From Hyperoplus lanceolatus (taxonomy: Eukaryota; Chordata; Actinopteri; Uranoscopiformes; Ammodytidae), in contig CM049395.1 in NCBI GenBank assembly GCA_026929865.2, forward strand, positions 15,330,001-15,394,000: 64,000 nt of DNA, given 5' to 3'. Within the stretch, counting starts at the first letter, position 1, and every line of letters begins with the position of its first letter. Under the pieces are notes generated by a model. It was not told where the DNA came from. It did no database searches and worked only from the letters and a program-made list of their open reading frames with translations. Shown here piece by piece: positions 12,301-18,084 of the stretch. The position numbers and the translations under genes are program-made.

Positions 12301-15300
12301 ATGAATGAGAGGTGTTTTTGACAGCTAAAGGTAGAATCCTTACACAATGAACCAAAACAGTCCATTAGAATTTATCACAAAGACTTAACTCTTCCTTACC
12401 TCTCTGATTGACGAGGTCCTTGGCGACATAAGCAATATAATCTGCCATGGTCTGTAAACAAATTTAGAGAATATAAATAACATCCATGACTAAATATGAG
12501 AATACAGTATATAACTTTTGCTGGGCAGTGGCCAATGGCGAAAGATTGCAATGGCAACATGCTAAATGCTAATCTCTCTCTCTCTCTATAAACAGTGTAT
12601 AGTGTCCTACATAGTTGAACTGCGGCACAAGTAGAAAGATAATATTAATTATGTCAGTAAAATTACTCAATAATGTGGATTACATGGGGGATAGGTTGAT
12701 TGGATTCTATAAATTGACCATAGGTGTGAATGTGAGTGTGAATGGTTGTCTGTCCCTATATGTGGCCCTGCGATGGACTGGCGAACTGTCCAGGGTGTAC
12801 CCTGCCCTCGCCCAATGCAGCTGGGATTGGCTCCAGCCCCCCCGCGACCCCTAACGGGACAAGCGGTAGAAGATGGATGGATGGATGGATGGTGGATTAC
12901 ATGGCAGGATCTGTCTGGAGTCTGCATACATTAGCCACCATAAACTACTGGTAGCACACTAGACACTTTTATTGATTCAACTGTTCATTTGTAAGAAGCT
13001 GAATGGGTTATATATTCTTTAAAAAGTTACATAGTCTTGCTTTGCCGCCAGGAGGAATTCTGGGCATATTTACAAAAAAAATGCTGCATCTACATGAGGT
13101 AAGCCTTTGGTGATCTCATAGGTTTTTATACCTTTTGCTGTACATCCAGTTTTTTTTTAGCAATGGAAACACAACGGAAACATATCGTGGGCTCCTGCGC
13201 CAATACAGAGAGTTTTGTGGAGCTGATTGGCATAATCAACTTTGTGTCATCTCATTTGGCAATGGCTTGAATGCTATCGACATTCAATTATAAGGAAAAA
13301 GTTATGCATTATAGCTTTAATCGTTTAAAACATAGCAGACACTTGTAGTAAATGGTCAACCATGTGTATTCTCTGTTCAATTGATTCAATACCTGTCGCT
13401 GCTTCTCGGATACTAATACAAGAGCAGAGTCAGCTGAATATATTTCACCACAAAGCCTCTGTGGCAGATTGATTTTAATTTCCGTCGCTATCTTCTATGA
13501 GTGCAAGCCAACTGAGCTGAGGTTTAGAGCACACTACAAGATTATTTCAGATAATTAATTAAACTGTGACCTATAATCCCATCTATAGCTTGGCCTGTGT
13601 TGTATTTCCCTGGGACACCACAGTCCTGTTCTCTTACATTTTTGGCCGGTGCAACCTTGAAGCCACAAAATGGCAATTAAATATTACCCAGCATTAGTAT
13701 TCACTGTTTGTTTGAACTGAAAAAAAGGTATTCATGGTCGATAACAGAAACATAAACAACATATTTTGTCGTGGGGGTTTGACCTAGACAGCAGCTAATA
13801 ACTAACATTTGCCGCTGGCTATTCAGACATTAACAGAGCAGCATTGATTTTATTTCAGGGTTTGTATCCATTTTAGACATTCAGGCAACAGGAAATGTTC
13901 ATGTAAATTCTGCCATGTATGGAAATAATGCGGGCACGGAGGGAAAGAGAGGGGAAGTAGATAAGAGTAATTAGTTTGAAACAGACTTAGGGTGGTGTAA
14001 AGATGATGAAAACACATACTGGCTTCAATGGCTGTATATATCGTCACAAGAAAAAAATTACAGTAATGTCTGGAATGCATTATTCTAAGAAGTGCACTTA
14101 AAAAGCCAACCAGAGATAGCAATGTACCCTACATCTGCCATATTATAGAAAATCTTTACATTCGACCCAGTTAAATTCTGTGAAAACATGTAATACCATG
14201 TTTCTTTTCTTAAGAAAGTAAATTTTACTTTTTTGTCAGCGGAGATGCATGATTGCAAACAAAAATTGTATAACTTCCCATCAAATGTAAAAATAGTAGG
14301 CATAGGCTATTCTGAATCATACATATTGCTTAATAAGTTATCATTCATCATGACCAATTACAGTATATATTTTGCAATCATTTCAATACATGCACTTACT
14401 TCTGTTTTTGTACGGCAGTCTTCTCTAGAATATTATCTTAAGGATATTTTTTTATTTTCAGTCAAATTTGATTAAATATTCTGAAGTAAAAGTGAAGGAT
14501 TATTTACTTTCGTCTTTCACAGAAGTTCAAAGTTTTCCTCTTAAACCAACAGAATAACAGTATAGAAAGATCAAGAGCTGGGGTTAGGAAATCATTCAAT
14601 TCTCCATGAATGGCATCAAACAAAGCAGTAATCAAATTAAATCAAATTACTGAATTCCATGAACATGTCTATACATGTTAAACATTTGAGAATGTGAACT
14701 TACCGGGTCTCCCCCCGAGGCAAAGGAAATGGCCTGCATGGGATGATAGGCAATCTTCTAAGGAAGCAGAAAGAGTGAAATAGAAAAACAGAAGTAGGGT
14801 AAGGTTTTTTTTCATACTCCATGCCTCAATAATTTTTATACGTATGACACTTGTAATTGGGTGAAGCGCGTTGAAGCTGTAACCTGTAACCTGTAAGGAG
14901 GAGGCGGAGATCAGAGTCAAGCTTTCTGTGGAGACATTGAGGATGATCCTGCTCCCAGAAAACTGGAGGTTGATTTGACCCAGAACAGCAGATAGTCCCT
15001 TGCAGACAGGCTGATGATGACAAACATTAAGCAGTTATTCTACTTTGGGCTGTGGTGTAATTGTGTGTGTGTGTGTGTGTGTGTGTGTGTGTGTGTGTGT
15101 GTGTGTGTGTGTGTGTGTGTGTGTGTGTGTGTGTGTGTTTGTGTGTATAGGTATGTGCGTGTGTGTGTATGTGTGTGTGTGTGTGCCTTACCTTTTTAGT
15201 TTTCACTGTTGTCCTGGCTGATGTCCTCTCACACAGTCTGTTGATTGCCTCTCTGCACACACACACACACACACACACACACACACACACACACACACAC

Positions 15301-18084: not shown

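Follow-up and report, generated by a model that had tools for sequence, protein, structure and literature searches.

Bridged introns, the class that is attributed to Lin et al. 2016 (Genome Res 26:12-23), reportedly carry AC repeats at their 5' (donor) end and GU repeats at their 3' (acceptor) end. In fish and lamprey, AC- and GT-rich tracts were described as forming a stable structure across the introns of such a class, by which the choice of splice sites is enforced (PMC7404189). For zebrafish it was reported that hairpins of dinucleotide repeats at opposite intron boundaries permit splicing without U2AF2 (PMC9198270), and a further text, in which the same Lin et al. 2016 work is cited, states that structured zebrafish introns are spliced independently of U2AF2 (PMC9508853). 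Two other systems have to be kept in mind: the looping-out of an exon by paired flanking introns (PMC7404189) and exon 9 of CFTR, which is preceded by the (UG)m(U)n run of intron 8 (PMC12171016).

The intron in front of exon C of shc4 from Hyperoplus lanceolatus has several features in common with the AC/GU bridged introns that are known from fish and lamprey: a CA repeat lies just inside the donor and a UG repeat at the acceptor of one and the same intron, strong pairing is predicted across this intron and its pyrimidine tract is poor. It differs from them in that a second set of CA repeats is found past the next donor, where it competes for the UG run. With moderate confidence we read the intron at 15757-15253 as an AC/GU bridged intron, exon C as normally included and the downstream CA repeats as a competing partner. 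The bridging of introns has been described in fish before, and the shc4 case would add the competing downstream CA to it. If the bridge works, the locus would provide a natural test case for splicing that is upheld by RNA structure and not by a pyrimidine tract. If the two sets of CA repeats truly compete, differing lengths of these unstable repeats would make individuals differ in the splicing of a signalling adaptor.

Exon C in the shc4 gene model

The gene was modelled on the minus strand of the window (the whole stretch of 64 kb that was analysed), with all donors (GT) and acceptors (AG), 11 of each, placed by exact sequence. The 12 exons of this model yield an uninterrupted protein of 558 amino acids that ends in a stop codon and matches the Pfam families PID (1.8e-33) and SH2 (3.3e-14). 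The segment from exon B to exon D matched human SHC1 PTB structures (4 distinct sequences, with 4xwx, 2.7e-18, as the best). Judged by its sequence, the gene product is an SHC-family protein. We take it to be probably shc4 on account of its SHC4-like N-terminal residues and its neighbour genes: SECISBP2L and COPS2 are the expected vertebrate neighbours of SHC4, and the minus-strand frames that were noted in the window at 24500-22191 and near 46041 presumably resemble these two. The exons and the intron around which the analysis turns are the following.

15758..15828, minus strand: exon B, 71 nt, coding, upstream partner of exon C; donor ACG/GTAGGA
15253..15757, minus strand: intron B-C, 505 nt, candidate AC/GU bridged intron; a CA tract lies close to the 5' end, a UG tract at the 3' end
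15192..15252, minus strand: exon C, 61 nt, bounded by AG and GT; donor AAG/GTAAGG
14891..15010, minus strand: exon D, 120 nt, in which the reading frame stops when exon C is skipped

Intron C-D, on the minus strand between exons C and D, measures 181 nt. Exon C supplies the end of an R codon and then 20 residues of the PTB domain, and these residues align to the human SHC1 PTB domain with a gap of one residue. A previous reading of the sequence alone (hereafter the sequence-only reading) had described 15192-15252 as an exon of 61 nt belonging to the PTB domain, which is borne out by its AG/GT bounds and by the SHC1 alignment. The same reading had claimed that skipping shifts the frame, and this is what was found: exon C is required for the 558-amino-acid frame, and loss of its 61 nt closes the frame after 238 codons, within exon D and ahead of eight more exons (E-L). 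Nonsense-mediated decay is expected for a transcript of this kind; the skipped product is probably frame-shifted and degraded. Because exon C is needed for the 558-amino-acid frame and aligns to the human SHC1 PTB domain, we infer that it is probably constitutive.

Repeat tracts and the acceptor of exon C

The repeats and the possible branch-point region around exon C are listed here in the order of transcription.

15718..15743, minus strand: (CA)13 in the transcript, beginning 14 nt into intron B-C, after donor B
15354..15363, minus strand: nearest possible branch-point adenosine region, a yUnAy match with its A at 15358
15256..15345, minus strand: (UG)45, perfect, 90 nt, followed by CAG and then exon C
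15153..15185, minus strand: proximal CA-rich stretch after donor C, perfect for 16 nt (15185-15170) and then interrupted
15062..15138, minus strand: distal CA tract, 77 nt perfect, beginning 53 nt into intron C-D

That 45 perfect UG units reach the acceptor, as had been proposed earlier, was found to be correct: they occupy the 90 nt from 15345 to 15256, after which CAG and the exon follow. The array reported over this run by Tandem Repeats Finder is 15256-15355. The CA tract that was said to start about 6 nt past the donor and to be of similar length does start there, as the downstream CA sequence opens at donor C +7, 6 nt into the intron. However, it is not a single tract like the UG run, as it consists of 16 perfect nt, an interrupted part and 77 perfect nt. 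The (CA)13 at 15743-15718 was absent from the sequence-only reading, and its presence alters how the locus is read: intron B-C contains an AC repeat near its 5' end and a GU repeat near its 3' end, both within one intron.

The acceptor of exon C was compared with the other acceptors of the gene. Positions -23 to -4 contain 10 pyrimidines out of 20, the fewest among the 11 shc4 acceptors (range 10-18) and close to the next-lowest value, 11, at exon L. As in bridged introns, an ordinary polypyrimidine tract is thus lacking from intron B-C. Upstream of the acceptor no adenine is closer than the one at 15358, which lies 105 nt away from the acceptor G; the branch point, if it is an adenosine, must therefore be distant from the acceptor. 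The AG-free zone in front of exon C extends over 126 nt. In fission yeast, a long distance from branch point to acceptor can reportedly be made up for by RNA structure that lies between the two (PMC9508853).

In the mechanism that we propose, the (CA)13 near donor B would pair with the (UG)45 at the acceptor, whereby both splice sites would be drawn together. Such a CA-UG bridge would substitute for a proper polypyrimidine tract and exon C would normally be included; we infer both that the bridge forms in cells and that it aids splicing. The downstream CA tracts would then act as a later rival partner for (UG)45, and they may slow or now and then divert splicing, giving rise to a low level of frame-shifted, decay-prone transcript from which exon C is skipped.

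The UG run could also act through proteins. By analogy with CFTR exon 9, TDP-43 on the UG run would block the acceptor of exon C, and hnRNP L would be bound to the CA tracts. The likeness to CFTR that had been drawn earlier holds as far as position is concerned, since the UG run of shc4 adjoins the acceptor of exon C just as the run of CFTR intron 8 directly precedes that of exon 9 (PMC12171016). In addition, single-stranded (GU)12 was reported to be bound by TDP-43 extremely tightly and with a fast on-rate (PMC12697283). The likeness does not extend to the exon. For CFTR, skipping is reported to depend also on an element for hnRNP A1 within the exon, GGGGAAU as part of a bipartite motif (PMC12171016), whereas reading through the 61 nt of exon C revealed neither GGGG nor CAGGGA, and so neither part of a silencer of the type CAGGGAU...GGGGAAU. 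Unlike CFTR as described there, shc4 has 45 UG units, no U tract after them and complementary CA on both sides. Repression of the CFTR type is, in our estimate, quite improbable for exon C. As regards the proposed bridge, the UG run may already be taken up by TDP-43 or by a pUG fold when CA comes to pair with it; TDP-43 could pre-empt the pairing because of its very tight and fast binding to single-stranded UG (PMC12697283).

Predicted pairing in the growing transcript

Pairing was predicted at equilibrium at 28 and 37 C, in folds that leave out proteins, pseudoknots, pUG quadruplexes and kinetics. At both temperatures about 24-26 of the 26 upstream CA nt were paired with UG in transcripts ending at 15300, 15256, 15230 and 15192. 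The predicted bridge held at ends 15160, 15138 and 15120 (about 25-26 of 26 nt paired) and was reduced to 18 of 26 nt at end 15100. At ends 15080 and 15062 it was lost to the downstream CA in the equilibrium fold (at most 0.42 of 26 nt paired). With the end at 15011 the bridge comprised 17.6 nt at 28 C and 7.5 nt at 37 C, and in the full segment (end 14891) 20.3 nt at 28 C and 18.9 nt at 37 C, of 26. A stable structure across intron B-C, as is typical of a bridged intron, was in this way predicted by the folds. Before the downstream CA exists, the bridge is situated nearer to the acceptor, with a mean partner of 15283-15293. Once the full segment is folded, the 5' part of the UG run is taken by the upstream CA (mean partner 15342) and its remainder by the downstream CA.

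The sequence-only reading had the UG and CA tracts pair with each other and loop the exon out. In such a switch, pairing of UG with the downstream CA would bury exon C together with its splice sites, resulting in regulated skipping and less full-length Shc4. As far as the folds go this is physically possible: in the full segment about 75 of the 77 distal CA nt were paired with UG, enclosing exon C, and the unpaired fraction of donor C, which is 0.87 when the transcript ends at 15186, was lowered to 0.31. Within the limits of the model, the pairing of donor C in the full segment favours skipping. The arrangement is also that of exon looping-out by paired flanking introns, in that complementary tracts flank exon C (PMC7404189), and an effect of dinucleotide repeats on CFTR splicing via RNA structure has reportedly been published (Hefferon et al. 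2004). Skipping would, moreover, bring the stop after 238 codons. However, the upstream (CA)13 is predicted to pair first with the same UG run in the growing RNA and partly coexists with the downstream pairing later, and the effect reported for bridging is enforced splicing, the opposite of skipping. This intron-bridging partner of the upstream tract, and the need for exon C in the frame, set shc4 apart from exon looping-out as presented in PMC7404189. Furthermore, most of the acceptor region is left unpaired (0.79) when the full segment is folded, donor C seems by eye nearer to the consensus than donor B, and exon C aligns to human SHC1. A looping switch is therefore regarded by us as unlikely.

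A bridged intron with exon C normally included is likewise not singled out by every value from the folds. With growth of the transcript the unpaired fraction of donor B went from 0.58 via 0.42 and 0.42 to 0.28, values which in these models favour neither bridging nor skipping, and that of the acceptor region was 0.77, 0.45, 0.45 and 0.79. As donors B and C are both mostly paired in it, the full fold does not clearly favour inclusion. A control fold was made in which (CA)13 had been scrambled once. The UG run was still fully paired (unpaired 0.01), and the unpaired fractions were 0.70 versus 0.31 with the tract present for donor C and 0.25 versus 0.28 for donor B. Taken alone, the predicted figure for donor C speaks against (CA)13 helping exon C; it comes from a single scramble and is not built upon here.

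The dependence of the predicted bridge on repeat length was followed at 37 C for 14 UG lengths, with a downstream CA tract of either 38 or 10 units. The values are given in the same order throughout.

UG units: 5, 8, 10, 13, 15, 20, 25, 30, 35, 40, 45, 50, 55, 60
Upstream-bridge paired nt, 38 downstream CA units: 17.5, 22.7, 1.0, 0, 0, 0, 0, 0, 2.4, 14.6, 20.6, 0.5, 4.0, 18.2
Upstream-bridge paired nt, 10 downstream CA units: 17.4, 22.7, 23.7, 24.2, 13.6, 11.4, 6.3, 15.7, 21.0, 21.5, 24.0, 25.1, 25.6, 25.8

Of the 10 UG lengths below 45, 7 gave a weak bridge (at most 2.4 nt) with the 38-unit tract. As regards length-dependent skipping, one of the outcomes foreseen earlier, the scan showed no simple relation between the length of the UG run and the predicted pairing. 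The simple rule that a longer UG run leads to more skipping was set aside on account of these irregular scans. A more elaborate scheme would be an RNA switch of three tracts, with the UG run shared by the upstream CA (bridge, inclusion) and the downstream CA (loop-out, skipping). The balance between the two would then be non-monotonic and would depend on how long the three unstable microsatellites are and how fast transcription proceeds, possibly also on temperature. We give this scheme little chance of being right.

The other foreseen outcome, a circular RNA consisting of exon C only, would profit from the complementary flanks of the exon. It is disfavoured by the trend in exon length, as 61 nt is very short and circularisation favours large exons and is less common among shorter ones, according to data for S. 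pombe and the human data cited with them (PMC4479058). Such a circle is highly improbable.

Chance placement and other repeats in the window

The repeats could also be neutral microsatellites that have grown near splice sites and are tolerated since exon C still splices. The window contains 18 perfect dinucleotide arrays of at least 16 nt, 12 of which measure at least 24 nt, and their placement was randomized in 50,000 trials. In this test, which was framed after the locus had been seen and which assumes uniform placement, 3 of the 22 shc4 splice sites had, no more than 15 nt away in the intron, a perfect array of at least 16 nt (expected 0.101, P = 0.00026). For arrays of at least 24 nt this was the case at 2 of the 22 (expected 0.067, P = 0.0027). 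When the limit was widened to 30 nt the matches were the same, with P = 0.0017 (at least 16 nt) and P = 0.0107 (at least 24 nt). About 20,000 human UG runs of at least 12 units are said, in a preprint, to be mostly intronic and near splice sites (PMC12697283). The true null may therefore be less strict, and a placement like that in shc4 may be common. Nevertheless, three arrays cluster at splice sites round a single exon, for which uniform placement gives P about 0.0003, and in this cluster each of the two donors is followed by CA and the acceptor is preceded by UG. That the repeats are neutral is accordingly held to be improbable.

Several other repeats were noted. A search of the 64 kb window with Rfam at the gathering threshold gave 0 matches. 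A second pair of UG followed by CA is present on the minus strand at 55640-55453 (40 and 35 nt, 113 nt apart), and by eye no convincing exon was seen between the two. Intron A-B contains, at 17161-16980 and away from splice sites, 15 nt of CA and 28 nt of UG in the sense of the transcript. A CA-rich tract at 6329-6165, also in transcript sense, is perfect over 89 nt at one end; as it lies soon after the shc4 stop codon, it is probably located in the 3' UTR. Another CA-rich tract, at 8774-8575 in the same sense, has perfect blocks of 82, 12 and 43 nt and stops about 47 nt short of the exon I acceptor (8528), near the site where a branch point is expected.
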